NCBI GenBank assembly: GCA_013288805.1
Contig: JABDBE010000002.1
Coordinates: forward strand, 1 to 64,000
Length of the DNA stretch: 64,000 bases
Direction of reading: 5' to 3'
Source: Acidobacteriota bacterium
GTDB taxonomy: Bacteria > Acidobacteriota > Terriglobia > Terriglobales > Acidobacteriaceae
Position 1 is the stretch's first letter. Every line of letters begins with the position of its first letter. This document shows, in pieces, positions 1,395-33,980 of the stretch. The notes under the pieces are model-generated. The model was not told where the DNA came from. It worked only from the letters and a program-made list of their open reading frames with translations, and did not search any database. Both the position numbers and the translations under genes were made by a program.

Positions 1395-1641
1395 GGCCGC
1401 CTCCCCAAGCGTCGCTGTTGATGATTGCAGCTCGAACCGCTATCTGCCAGTTACATAAGTAAGGAGCCACAGATCCAACGGCGAGTTTGCCGAATGCCCT
1501 TAAGATTCGTGACTTGGGTCATCGTCCAGATGGTTACCGGTGTTTCACGATCCCCACCAACGAGCCATTGTTGAAACGCCTTCCGTAGCGCAAGCTGGTA
1601 GCAGTCGAGAGCAAGTTTGAGAGCTATCGGGGGGAGAGAAT

Positions 1642-1770
1642 ATGGCTGAGTTTCTGCGCAAAACGCGGGCGTCGGGTGTGGTCGAGAACGTTGCCGAGTA
1701 CCTCGTCATGCTGTTCGTTGCCGCAATGACCGGGGTGAGTACACTGCGCCTGCTAGGGATTCTGCCTTAA
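1642..1770 (+). CDS. putative 42-aa single-span membrane protein
   Basis: A short ORF of 42 residues begins MAEFLRKTRASG and continues into one hydrophobic stretch (about residues 19-41: EYLVMLFVAAMTGVSTLRLL). A very strong Shine-Dalgarno run (GGGGGGAGAG) sits 4-12 bases before the ATG, and a rho-independent terminator lies about 95 bases downstream. That combination argues for a translated unit. The basic N-terminus followed by one span suggests an inner-membrane micro-protein with its N-terminus inside. I do not recognise a family. It fills most of the gap between the genes at 1394 and 1903. Confidence 0.45.
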   Translation: MAEFLRKTRASGVVENVAEYLVMLFVAAMTGVSTLRLLGILP

Positions 1771-4869: not shown

Positions 4870-7011
4870 CTATTGCTTCTTCTTGCTGCCGAACAATCCC
4901 ATGATCTGGTTCACGGGATTCTGCTGCTGTCCGGCGGCGGGTTGGCCCTTCTGTCCGCTCAATCCACCCAGTATCGAAGAAGCGGCGCCCAAGGGATTAT
5001 CCCCGTTGGGTATCAAGCCTTTCAGTTTCATCTGGGCCATTTTCTGGACGTCGGGCACAACCTTTGGATTCTGGAAAGTGCCGGTAACAATCGCCGGTAT
5101 TACTAGCTCTCCCTGATTATTCGCCAACGCGGTAGTCATGTAGCCGCCGACGCCCGTGCCCCCGGCCTGTTGTGTGAAGGCTTTTGAGAGCACGGCCGTG
5201 AGTTGCATATTGAGGGTCTGGCTGGCCAGGTTGGCAGTACCGGTCGCGCCTACGTTGCCGATATCAAGAGTCGCCTGCAGATTGTTGGTCTGCGCGACCC
5301 CGTTCTTGACCACGATGTTTCCGGTCATTTTCTGAACGTTGGTATAGCCCTGATCTTTTCCTCCCTGGGAAGAACCGATCATGGAAAGAAGTTGGTGAGA
5401 AATGTCGACTCCCGCATAGCGCACGTTGTTGAAGTTGATGTTGATCGTTCCGTTGAGCGCTTTCACGATCTGATCCGAGCTAATGGATTGCAGCGGACCT
5501 GCTGCGCTCATATCGAGAGCGAGATTTCCCGAGCCGCTGATCTTGTCGAGCGAGGTTACGCCGTAGGCTTTGGCCATGGAGAGAAGATCGGGCAGGGCTG
5601 CTTGCGGAGCACGTACCGTCGCATTCACCTGCGGCGCATTGGAAGTGTATTGCTTCATGGAGAATTGCACGGCCGCCGTGGTTCCACCCGAAGTTACATT
5701 GAAGTTGTCAGAATGAATCTCGGTTGGCGTCAGCGCAATATTCACCGTCTTGACCTGAACCGGCTTGGCGATTTCTTTCCCGGAAATCTGCAGGTTGTTG
5801 CCTGCCAGAGTTCCGTTGAGCGCGGGCTTATCCGCAGAGCCCTGAGCCTTGATGTCGGCATTGATTTGTCCGGTCACGGTCGTGCCGGGAGCGAAGGCAA
5901 TGCCCGCAGCGGCCGCCAGGCGGGCAATCTCTGCGATGGAAACGCTGTTGGCTTTCAGTTCCACATCAACCTGCGCCGGTGTAGGCTTCGAGTTCATCGT
6001 GCCCGTGACGGACACCGGCGTCGGACCTAATTTGATCGCGCCCTTATTAATCTTTAGTAAATCATTAACCAGGTCGTCGCTGACGTCGTAGTCCACGTTG
6101 ATCGGGTATCCCACATCGATGCCGTGCAACTTTGGTTTGTCCAGATTCATCTGTCCGTTTGCCGATAGGTTTCCGTTCGCGCTGGCGATATCTGTGTGTC
6201 CAGAGAGCACACCGTCGGTGTTGACTAGCGCCGGAGTCTGCAGGAACTTTTGCAGTTCTCCAATCTCGACTCCCTTTAGTTCTAGAGTTCCCTTGAAGGG
6301 CGTGCTGGCGGGATTCGTGTGCGAGAGTGGCCCACCCTTGCCTTGTAGCTGCACTTCCTGGCTCCCCGAACCGGGCAAGTGAACCGATGCCTCCAGGTTG
6401 AACGGAGTGTTGGGAGCGAAATCCGTAAGCTTGAGATTGATGTTGTTGTAGACAGTTCGCGGCTTGTGGTCCTGCAGATCGGTGATTGCGACCAATCCAT
6501 CGTTGATTGCCAATTCGCCCAACGAGAATTGTTGCCCGCCGGACTCGGCTGGCGCGGGAGACGGAGCGGGTGTCCGTGGCGGCGCACCCGGAGCAGACGC
6601 CGATGGCGGCGCTGTTGCAGGCGCACTTTGACCAAGCGAGGCGAAATTCCACACGCCCTGCGCGTTCTTGATCAATTCGACGCTGGGACGTTCCAACGAA
6701 AGCGAATCGACCTCTACCGACTTGCTAAGCAGGGGAAGGAGTTTTACCGAAACGCTCAACTCCTGGGTTTGAATGAACGGGCGATTGCTGAACTTCGGAT
6801 CGTCAGCGATCGAAAGGTTCGCCACTCGAAAACGAAGCGGGAACAGCCCCAAACTCATGTCACCCAAACTGACTTTTCGATTCAACTGCTGCTCGAGTTT
6901 GGTCTGGACCGTGCCCCGGTAGTCGTTAGGATTGAAAGTCGCCAAAAGCACGCCCACGGCAACTACGATGATGAGCACTACGATTCCGATGACGATTGCG
7001 ATTTTGCGCAT
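4870..7011 (-). CDS. AsmA family inner-membrane-anchored envelope protein
   Basis: 713 residues. One N-terminal membrane span (about residues 4-25) is followed by the AsmA N-terminal region with NPNDYRGTVQTKLEQQLNRK, typical of the family. A Pro/Ala linker lies around residues 133-155, then a long beta-rich part with the C-terminal AsmA region (near 480-660). The tail is Gln/Gly-rich and ends KKKQ. AsmA-like proteins are periplasmic beta-groove proteins linked to outer-membrane assembly and lipid transfer. The gene stands alone, convergent with the deacetylase gene. Confidence 0.88.
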   Translation of the reverse strand: MRKIAIVIGIVVLIIVVAVGVLLATFNPNDYRGTVQTKLEQQLNRKVSLGDMSLGLFPLRFRVANLSIADDPKFSNRPFIQTQELSVSVKLLPLLSKSVEVDSLSLERPSVELIKNAQGVWNFASLGQSAPATAPPSASAPGAPPRTPAPSPAPAESGGQQFSLGELAINDGLVAITDLQDHKPRTVYNNINLKLTDFAPNTPFNLEASVHLPGSGSQEVQLQGKGGPLSHTNPASTPFKGTLELKGVEIGELQKFLQTPALVNTDGVLSGHTDIASANGNLSANGQMNLDKPKLHGIDVGYPINVDYDVSDDLVNDLLKINKGAIKLGPTPVSVTGTMNSKPTPAQVDVELKANSVSIAEIARLAAAAGIAFAPGTTVTGQINADIKAQGSADKPALNGTLAGNNLQISGKEIAKPVQVKTVNIALTPTEIHSDNFNVTSGGTTAAVQFSMKQYTSNAPQVNATVRAPQAALPDLLSMAKAYGVTSLDKISGSGNLALDMSAAGPLQSISSDQIVKALNGTININFNNVRYAGVDISHQLLSMIGSSQGGKDQGYTNVQKMTGNIVVKNGVAQTNNLQATLDIGNVGATGTANLASQTLNMQLTAVLSKAFTQQAGGTGVGGYMTTALANNQGELVIPAIVTGTFQNPKVVPDVQKMAQMKLKGLIPNGDNPLGAASSILGGLSGQKGQPAAGQQQNPVNQIMGLFGSKKKQ

Positions 7012-31389: not shown

Positions 31390-32334
31390 ATGAACGCACT
31401 CCCCGAGACTCGCATCGGCACGGCCGGTTGGAGCTATAAAGACTGGGATGGCGTCTTTTATCCTCCGGGCATGCAGCGCGGAAAGCGGCATGCGCTGGAA
31501 TTTCTGGCCCAGTGCTTCGATGTAGTCGAGATCAACACATCTTTTTACGGACACATCAAGCCGGAACTGGCCAAGCTTTGGGTGCGCAAGGTCGCGGTCA
31601 ATCCAAAGTTTATGTTCACGGCGAAACTACACCGCTCGTTTACGCATTCTCCCATTGCGGTGATGGAGCCTACATCGGCCGCGACCATCAAGCCCAACGA
31701 TGAGGATGAAAGGCTGGCGCGCGAGGGTCTCGATGCGCTGGCTTCGACCGGAAAACTGGGCGCGCTGCTCATTCAATTTCCAGTCTCGTTCAAGAACACA
31801 TCGTTGAACCGCGAATATCTGGAGCAGTTGTTGCGGCAGTTCATCGAGTTTCCCCGCGTAGTCGAAGTGCGACATGAGAGCTGGAACAATCCCGAAACGA
31901 TCAGCTATTTCACGGAGAGAAATGTCGCCTTCTGCAACATCGACCAGCCGCTGATTGGGCGCTCGCTCGAAGCCACGGAACATGTGACTTCACCGGTTGG
32001 ATACGTGCGGCTGCACGGCCGGAACTACGATCAATGGTTTGAAGCCGAGAAAGGCGCGGATCGCTACAACTATCTGTACAGCGAAGCAGAATTAACGGGA
32101 TGGAAAGAGAAAATCGAGCGCATCGCGCAGAAAGCCGAAGTCACCTACGTAGTCGCGAATAATCATTTCGAAGGGAAGGCCGGAGTCAACGCCCTGCAGT
32201 TAAAACACATGCTGAGCGGGCAGCGCGTGAAAGCGACCGAGACGCTATTGCAGCATTATCCCGCGCTGAAGAGTATTGCCGATCCGATTGCAGATGATGA
32301 CGACGGATTGCCTCTGCTATCGATGTCATCATAA
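31390..32334 (+). CDS. DUF72 family protein (YecE-like)
   Basis: 314 residues from the ATG at 31390; a GTG five codons earlier is possible. The N-terminus RIGTAGWSYKDWDGVFYPPG is the DUF72 hallmark, followed by VEINTSFYGH, AKLHRSFTH, LLIQFPVSF, VEVRHESW and YVRLHGRN, in the usual TIM-barrel order. The family resembles endonuclease IV in fold but lacks a proven activity. Likely cytoplasmic. It ends about 160 bases before the tRNA gene; a hairpin (GGGTTCC/GGAACCC, 32346-32369) lies behind it without a T-run. Confidence 0.9.
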   Translation: MNALPETRIGTAGWSYKDWDGVFYPPGMQRGKRHALEFLAQCFDVVEINTSFYGHIKPELAKLWVRKVAVNPKFMFTAKLHRSFTHSPIAVMEPTSAATIKPNDEDERLAREGLDALASTGKLGALLIQFPVSFKNTSLNREYLEQLLRQFIEFPRVVEVRHESWNNPETISYFTERNVAFCNIDQPLIGRSLEATEHVTSPVGYVRLHGRNYDQWFEAEKGADRYNYLYSEAELTGWKEKIERIAQKAEVTYVVANNHFEGKAGVNALQLKHMLSGQRVKATETLLQHYPALKSIADPIADDDDGLPLLSMSS

Positions 32335-32498
32335 GGTTTCGTGATGGGTTCCTTCCCGTTTTGGAACCCGTTCGGCAAAGACTGGTCATCCGTCACAACC
32401 GTTGAACCCCGAATTCTGCAAGGATCGTATGGGATCTGTGGTGGGTTCGGCGCATGAAGGTGCGAGCGCACTTTATTCCGACCGGCGAAACAGCTAGC

Positions 32499-32573
32499 GG
32501 CCCCCTAGCTCAGCCGGATAGAGCGCTTAGGTTCGCACCTTAGAGGTCGTGAGTTCGAATCTCACCGGGGCCA
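32499..32573 (+). tRNA. irregular tRNA gene, isotype uncertain (Arg-like body; anticodon CGC or UCG)
   Basis: GGCCCCC opens the acceptor stem and CGGGGCC A closes it (C7-C66 is mismatched). The D arm is GCTC-AGCCGGATA-GAGC and the T arm is perfect (GTGAG-TTCGAAT-CTCAC). The region between the D arm and the variable loop has one base more than normal. Read with loop TTCGCAC the anticodon is CGC (Ala) and the stem has two wobble pairs; read with loop GTTCGCA it is UCG (Arg) but the stem does not pair. A at position 20 fits Arg. CCA is not encoded. The gene may be functional or degenerate. Confidence 0.65.
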
Positions 32574-32665
32574 CCCTACCGCTCAGTTACGAAAGTACAT
32601 TCGAGCTTGACATCAAGTCGAGCGAGAGCGAGACTTTAACTTGTAAGGTGCGAACCTAAGCGCTC
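32521..32665. repeat. 22-bp perfect inverted repeat, one arm inside the tRNA
   Basis: Positions 32521-32542 (start GAGCGCTTAGG, covering the D-stem 3' side and most of the anticodon arm) are matched by their exact reverse complement at 32644-32665. The match is exactly 22 bp and stops on both sides. The arms are 101 bases apart. Confidence 0.85.
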
Positions 32666-32682
32666 AGCTTAGGAAGGTTTTC

Positions 32683-32711
32683 AAAGGCGGCCGCGAAGCC
32701 GCCTTTATTTA
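32683..32711 (+). terminator. rho-independent terminator behind the tRNA locus
   Basis: AAAGGCGGC at 32683-32691 pairs with GCCGCCTTT at 32698-32706, followed by ATTTATT. It likely ends the tRNA transcript, so the inverted copy at 32644-32665 would be inside that transcript. Confidence 0.7.
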
Positions 32712-32741
32712 TTGGCAACCTCTCTGTCAGTAAACTCTTCG

Positions 32742-33980
32742 TTATCGCGCCGCCACTTCTTCCCTGGCAGCGTAGTGGCTCTCCACGTATTCATCCATGA
32801 TCTTGATGAACTCGGCCACGATGTGGTCGCCCTTTAGCGTGGTGAACAGGCGGCCGTCGACGTAGACTGGGGCCTTTGGTTCTTCGAAGGTGCCGGGCAG
32901 GGAAATGCCCAGGCTGGCGTGTTTGGATTCGCCGGGGCCGTTGACCACGCAGCCCATGACTGCGACTTTCATTTCTTCGACGCCAGTGTAACGATCTTTC
33001 CACGTCGGCATTTGCTCGCGCAGGTAGGATTGAATCTGCTGCGCCATTTCCTGGAAGAAGGTGCTGGTCGTGCGGCCGCATCCGGGGCAAGCGGTGACCT
33101 GCGGAGTGAAGCTGCGGATTCCGAGCGATTGCAGAATCTGCTGGGCTACGCGGACTTCTTCGGTGCGATCGCCGCCGGGCGCGGGCGTGAGCGAAACGCG
33201 GATGGTATCGCCGATGCCTTCCTGCAGCAGCACTCCGAGAGCGGCGCTGGATGCGACTACACCCTTTGCCCCCATGCCCGCTTCGGTCAGTCCAAGGTGC
33301 AGCGGATAATTGCAACGCGCGGCCAGCGCGCGATAAACATCGATCAAGTCCTGCACGCCGCTGACTTTCGCACTAAGAATGATTTGGTCGGCGCGCAAGC
33401 CGTGCTTCTCAGCAAGTGCGGCAGAATTCAGTGCGCTCACGACCATGGCTTCCATCGTGACTTCGCGGGCGTCTTTCGGGTCGGAGAGGCGCGAGTTCTC
33501 GTCCATCATACGAGTGAGCAGAGCCTGATCGAGCGAGCCCCAGTTCACGCCGATGCGGACCGGCTTTTGATTCTCGACCGCGACTTCAATCATAGTGCGA
33601 AAGTTGGAATCGTCTTTCCGTCCGATGCCAACGTTGCCGGGGTTAATTCGATACTTGGCCAGCGCGCGGGCGCACTCGGGATATTTCTTGAGCAGTTGAT
33701 GTCCGTTGTAATGGAAATCGCCAACGATGGGGACGTTGATGCCTTGCTTGTCGAGTTGCTCGACGATGGGCGCGACCGCGGCCGCGGCGTCTTCGTTATT
33801 CACGGTGACGCGAACCAATTCGGAGCCCGCACGAGCTAGCGCCGCGACCTGCTGGGCGGTCGAGGGAATGTCTGCGGTATCCGTGTTCGTCATAGACTGC
33901 ACCACAACCGGTGCATCGCTGCCCACGCGAACCCCATTGATCGAACAAGTGACGGTTTTTCTGCGTTGAATATTAGCCAT
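32742..33980 (-). CDS. ispG: 4-hydroxy-3-methylbut-2-enyl-diphosphate synthase
   Basis: 412 residues. It catalyses the sixth step of the MEP pathway, reducing MEcPP to HMBPP with a [4Fe-4S] cluster. The TIM-barrel part begins [15 protein letters not shown] and includes [11 protein letters not shown] and INPGNVG. Cluster ligands are visible as [13 protein letters not shown] (Cys298, Cys301) and CVVNGPGE (Cys344, Glu351), all intact. It is the compact bacterial two-domain form without the plant-type insert. Last gene of the uppS-cdsA-dxr-rseP cluster on the minus strand, about 100 bases after rseP, with a GC-rich hairpin in that gap. Confidence 0.97.

Follow-up and report, generated by a model that had tools for sequence, protein, structure and literature searches.

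The locus analyzed here is probably one copy of a recurrent, RNA-only module, present many times over in soil Acidobacteria, that resembles a toxin-antitoxin (TA) pair, in which a mistranslating tRNA would be silenced by a small RNA (sRNA) antisense to its anticodon. It lies in a window of 64,000 nucleotides, the whole stretch of DNA that was analyzed, and has the following features.

32347 to 32498, + strand: conserved leader 5′ of the tRNA, with a partial palindrome TTCCCGTTTTGGAA at 32353 to 32366 (aligned in 11 copies)
32499 to 32573, + strand: chimeric tRNA with an Arg-type body, a CGC (Ala-codon) anticodon, a C7-C66 mismatch and an 8-nt loop (ARAGORN, Rfam and body comparison)
32521 to 32542, + strand: target arm, comprising the 3′ strand of the D-stem and the anticodon stem and loop, with the anticodon CGC at 32534 to 32536 (exact complement of 32644 to 32665)
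32607 to 32612, + strand: TTGACA, the −35 element for the antisense sRNA (conserved in 14 copies)
32630 to 32635, + strand: −10 element GAGACT, weak, with a 17-nt spacer (copy alignment; not flagged by a generic promoter scan)
32642 to 32710, + strand: predicted antisense sRNA of about 65–70 nt (16 strong copies by covariance model R1; predicted start placed by reference to the promoter)
32644 to 32665, + strand: antisense arm, the 5′ end of the sRNA (complement of 32521 to 32542)
32655 to 32673, + strand: sRNA hairpin 1, CCTAAGC-GCTCA-GCTTAGG (at two base pairs both partners have changed)
32683 to 32706, + strand: intrinsic terminator stem of the sRNA (terminator scan and alignment fold)

The 22-nt segment at 32521–32542, within the tRNA, is exactly complementary to 32644–32665 downstream, as a preliminary description of this DNA had stated and sequence comparison bore out; when mismatches are allowed the complementarity grows to 27 nt (93%). 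Chance was ruled out for the 22-nt match by a control of 84 tRNAs from the window's genome (G000) and one relative (G146), in which a single ordinary tRNA had downstream antisense to its anticodon arm as long as 10 nt; the one longer case (13 nt) is a further module of the class (G000:C42). ARAGORN (CGC anticodon) and Rfam (49.5 bits, against a gathering cut-off of 29 for RF00005) both call a tRNA with a cloverleaf at 32499–32573/5, and an Rfam scan of the locus returned no family except RF00005 above gathering. The tRNA has the 7/5 form with a short variable loop. Its oddities, an extra base in the anticodon arm and the C7-C66 mismatch, had been pointed out before and are visible in the sequence. 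The anticodon had been called ambiguous between CGC and UCG; of the two, CGC fits the fold, and other copies show a clean CUAGG-UUCGCAC-CUUAG arm. With its mismatch and enlarged anticodon loop, the window's own tRNA is probably partly decayed or weakened, and its sRNA appears intact.

The tRNA is flanked by a DUF72 gene on one side and ispG on the other. No tRNA was found between these genes in relatives that keep the pair, and the gap between them is about 30–45 bp in two such relatives (G009 and G014); the module was therefore most likely gained in the lineage of the window. The leader merits separate mention. In the window (32454–32463) and in other copies it holds GGTGCGA(A), which is complementary to the anticodon loop of the tRNA, as the sRNA is, and which may pair with that loop in cis before processing. 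The palindrome reads TTCCCAAATNGGGAA in the best copies (alignment A1), about 140 bp 5′ of the tRNA, and is possibly an operator or the end of an element. A small protein gene in the leader was ruled out by inspection, since its indels are not multiples of three.

In all 14 aligned copies a TTGACA-like and a GAGACT-like hexamer are separated by a spacer of near-constant length (about 17 nt) whose sequence varies; a few nucleotides past the second hexamer the antisense starts. The promoter of the window escaped the generic scan because its −10 element is weak. The downstream arm is most likely the 5′ part of a separate sRNA with its own promoter, judging from this arrangement. The terminator that the preliminary description had placed at 32683 was confirmed (32683–32706). 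The computed duplex between the window sRNA and its own tRNA has an energy of −45.6 kcal/mol, compared with −30 or weaker for ordinary tRNAs, and in a co-fold of the two RNAs the cloverleaf is opened.

A DNA search of 398 genomes from the same family as the host, with the whole intergenic stretch as the query, returned more copies that span both the tRNA and the downstream arm. Many of the genomes are MAGs, and those with an exact pattern match are acidobacterial (Terriglobia) MAGs. Alignment shows that the copies share a leader, a tRNA, a CTTGACA-containing linker and a final segment made up of antisense, hairpin and terminator. R1, a covariance model of the downstream (sRNA) part only, found 16 strong copies in the host family, ten with a tRNA and six with the sRNA only. 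Among the latter, the anticodon arm of the tRNA is partly deleted in G100:C130, the tRNA is interrupted by repeats in G068, and the sRNA has no adjoining cognate tRNA in G408, G357, G353 and G381. The first DNA search, whose query included the tRNA, returned no tRNA-only CGC copy; the excess of sRNA-only over tRNA-only copies from R1 is partly by design, since the sRNA model was the query.

The genes flanking the copies are unrelated and no conserved neighbor gene was found across them, with the exception that DUF72 stands beside the window copy and 5′ of one of the two G100 copies. A search for carriage by phages or plasmids gave tRNA-sized or short matches, or none. Also rejected were 17 viral contigs with the D-arm word of allo-tRNAs (defined below), which do not hold tRNAs of the module kind, and a gammaproteobacterial pattern match (L128), which lies inside an ORF and is due to chance. 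At G068:C12:73494-78517 (L120), dispersed repeats that share the core CCTGTCATCCTGAGCG occur both next to and within the broken module and remove the 5′ half of the tRNA. On G064:C172 (L123), two CGC-type modules in opposite orientation (140–345 and 5567–5777) lie near the ends of a 6-kb contig and flank genes for S-adenosylmethionine synthetase and S-adenosylhomocysteine hydrolase.

Further modules of this kind carry other tRNA bodies and anticodons (GCU, CAG, GAG, GCG, GUC, AUC and others), with the sRNA altered to match. R1 had weaker matches in another family of the class (f7), three of which have a different tRNA upstream together with its own antisense. In G598 and G584 this is a GCT tRNA that lacks the long arm of tRNA-Ser; the antisense in G598 is 18 bp long, and between the two modules there is a compensatory change, from CCCGCT/AGCGGG to CCTGCT/AGCAGG. 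In G481 the tRNA has the anticodon CAG and a long variable arm, again with an 18-bp antisense. GAG modules have antisense of 22 bp in G612 and 12 nt (exact) in G584, and the GCG module of G598:C88 has one of 14 bp, by inspection. In the CAG, GAG and GCG tRNAs the acceptor stem has 8 bp and the T stem 4 bp, which is the allo-tRNA form, and four f7 modules are 8/4. In G381 (L208, C21), a complete module, whose tRNA has the anticodon GTC and a body of Ala type, is back to back with the orphan CGC-type sRNA; the tRNA is at 1412–1485 (− strand) and the orphan sRNA at 1609–1714 (+ strand), as if modules cluster. The control case G000:C42 is a further module with an ATC anticodon and an Ala-type body, and the window's genome, which is 54% complete, has four modules in view (the window, C47, C52 and C42). 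The same genome has a cluster of irregular, low-scoring tRNA-like genes at G000:C151:1907-2370 (L349), which could be a phage-type tRNA array. The preliminary description had made its reading depend on whether the inverted arm persists in relatives; it is conserved there and covaries with the tRNA.

The association was also examined blind to the antisense. R2, a model built only on the allo-tRNA body, was run on the 398 family genomes with no use of the antisense and gave 67 matches, of which two lie in the genome of the window. Antisense of at least 10 nt to the anticodon arm within 220 nt was present downstream of 47 matches and upstream of one. Two matches (G091 and G305:C52) were taken not to be allo-tRNAs and were dropped, leaving 65 tRNAs for permutation. 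Of these, 47 had at least 10 nt of their own antisense downstream, whereas in 5000 permutations of the partners no more than 13 of the 65 reached that length; the longest match averaged 11.7 nt for true partners versus 7.0 nt for permuted ones, and the matched stretches comprised 38 distinct sequences. Among the 47, a few weak cases with antisense within 25 nt of the tRNA are probably due to chance. The 18 allo-tRNAs without clear antisense may reflect decay, divergence or other causes. Duplex energy favored the downstream over the upstream side by more than 5 kcal/mol in 47 cases and the reverse was never seen; the automatic anticodon calls in that energy table are wrong for a few entries, namely the six labeled GTG, which read GAG by eye. 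When R2 was applied to 139 genomes of the phylum, with light sampling outside Terriglobia, only ordinary tRNA-Ser was found outside the host family.

These results bear on two further explanations of the inverted arm. A leftover of integration, which the preliminary description had offered, does not agree with the inverted orientation of the repeat, and no direct repeat of the tRNA is present within 31800–33200. It had also suggested a decayed tRNA copy; the window tRNA does look partly decayed, but decay does not explain the arm. Decay combined with an accidental inverted duplication by template switching would agree with that appearance and with the lack of the locus at the DUF72–ispG junction of the relatives examined, and a template switch could have made the match exact in the window copy and in G100a. 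Covariation in dozens of cases that also have a promoter and a terminator argues otherwise, and the permutation test refutes this account as a general explanation; for the locus at hand we consider it almost certainly wrong.

Promoters were sought at 45 loci kept from the 47. The best promoter is typically TTGACA-N16/17-TATNAT, its −10 element ends 4–8 nt ahead of the antisense in most loci (mode 6), and it beats shuffled sequences at p<0.05 in 35 of the 45. This placement bears on the proposal, made in the preliminary description, of a self-sequestering precursor in which both arms share one transcript and the downstream arm unfolds the tRNA. There is no terminator between the tRNA and the arm, the alignment folds as one strand in just this way, and read-through transcripts would contain both arms. 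Against it stand the near-consensus promoter positioned to start an RNA at the antisense in most of the 45 loci, the window-type promoter with its constant spacing, and the six copies that keep the arm without the tRNA. A separate promoter between the arms had been named in advance as evidence against the precursor, and a promoter-like sequence is what lies there, its hexamers about 17 nt apart, set to start a separate sRNA at the antisense. The downstream arm is most likely no self-sequestering part of one precursor, and we regard the cis account as very doubtful.

The tRNA bodies were compared after removal of the anticodon arm. The window type is nearest to tRNA-Arg. For the G598 GCT type tRNA-Arg(TCG) comes first and tRNA-Met a close second, and the best match of both the GTC and the ATC type is tRNA-Ala(GGC), less strongly so in G146:C55. 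G3:U70 is kept in the GTC and ATC types. By the bacterial Arg identity set (PMC9976931), the window type keeps G2-C71, C3-G70 and A20, and the G598 type keeps A20 and C35. Charging of the window tRNA is uncertain because G35 stands in place of the Arg determinant C35. SerRS relies little on the anticodon (PMC9976931), and allo-tRNAs put Ser at Leu codons in E. coli (review PMC7609411), so most module tRNAs are expected to bear an amino acid foreign to their codon. As judged from these comparisons, the module tRNAs are chimeras of Ser-, Ala- or Arg-type bodies with the anticodons of other amino acids, and those of Ser type correspond to the allo-tRNAs in the literature. The window tRNA shares with allo-tRNAs the disagreement between anticodon and body (Arg-type, CGC) and lacks their 12-bp acceptor branch (8/4 or 9/3) and long variable arm.

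We propose that the first RNA of the module is a chimeric tRNA, with the body of one amino acid and the anticodon of another, and that the second is an sRNA of about 65 nt made from its own promoter just 3′ of the tRNA. The first 12–22 nt or so of the sRNA, complementary to the anticodon loop and stem, would be followed by a hairpin and the terminator. By pairing with the anticodon arm the sRNA would open the arm and hide the anticodon, so that the tRNA could not decode. The sRNA is presumably the less stable of the two; once it is exhausted, the stable tRNA would be set free, insert the wrong amino acid and poison translation. The module would then act as an RNA-only toxin (the tRNA) and antitoxin (the sRNA), probably for addiction or for a growth stop upon transcription shut-off. 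The sequences show the architecture with its conservation and covariation, where promoter and terminator lie, the disagreement between body and anticodon, and that sRNA-only copies exist; expression, pairing in cells, aminoacylation, the RNA stabilities and toxicity are inferred. Several points count against this reading: the charging of the window tRNA is uncertain, 18 of the 65 tRNAs found by body have no clear antisense, the excess of sRNA-only copies is partly by design, and allo-tRNAs have been expressed in E. coli with no lethality mentioned in the review (PMC7609411).

The same architecture would be expected if the chimeric tRNA were a useful missense suppressor, conditionally turned on, with the sRNA as its off-switch, and allo-tRNAs are competent for translation in E. 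coli (PMC7609411). We hold such controlled mistranslation to be rather unlikely, because the many unrelated and shifting anticodons in related genomes, the patchy distribution over scattered loci, the several modules per genome and the survival of sRNA-only remnants fit a selfish, addictive TA unit better than an adaptive recoding device. The sRNA-only copies would also suit a tRNA-like sponge that titrates or stabilizes an sRNA whose true targets are mRNAs. That idea has a slim chance of being correct, given that the antisense tracks the anticodon arm of whichever tRNA adjoins it and that tRNA and synthetase-identity features are retained in most bodies.

We put at about even the chance that the TA-like modules constitute a new class of RNA-only TA system, with a mistranslating chimeric tRNA as the toxin and an anticodon-masking sRNA as the antitoxin, spread across Terriglobia with many anticodons. 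Allo-tRNAs were reportedly described in 2017 without a clear natural function, and the module would give them a partner and a testable role. We know of no earlier natural system in which the error-making tRNAs of a bacterium are under antisense control; if correct, this would be the first known natural antisense control of error-making tRNAs that a bacterium keeps. The pairing of anticodon and sRNA is predictable from sequence alone, the module could act in stress, addiction or phage defense, and it points to a way of turning off individual suppressor tRNAs in laboratory use.

Type I TA systems have an RNA antitoxin, and in type VIII the toxin is also RNA. The module resembles both in that a small RNA would neutralize an adjoining RNA by base pairing, and it leaves sRNA-only remnants; an adjacent, base-pairing candidate RNA antitoxin with its own promoter can be read from the DNA. 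What sets it apart is that a tRNA would be the toxin and that masking would fall on the anticodon. In Streptomyces, a tRNA-Pro with an Ala anticodon serves deliberate mistranslation with a dedicated synthetase; body and anticodon disagree there too, but that case is not known to involve an antisense RNA. Allo-tRNAs (Mukai et al., 2017, as covered by review PMC7609411), which have the 8/4 or 9/3 form and occur in Acidobacteria among other groups, are likewise chimeric with non-matching anticodons, and modules C47 and C52 of the window's genome have the allo-tRNA body, whereas the window tRNA is 7/5 and Arg-type. An antisense sRNA partner is not mentioned in that review, and a literature search found none for allo-tRNAs, although prior notice in other papers is possible. 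CreTA, in which the CRISPR-regulated RNA toxin CreT sequesters a rare tRNA (PMC8501985), is also an RNA-only pair that affects translation through a tRNA. There, CreT acts by titrating a tRNA of the host, and CreA, a guide resembling a crRNA, by repressing transcription; in the module, by contrast, the tRNA is itself the proposed toxin, and the antitoxin would be an antisense RNA to that tRNA, with its own promoter and no promoter guide.
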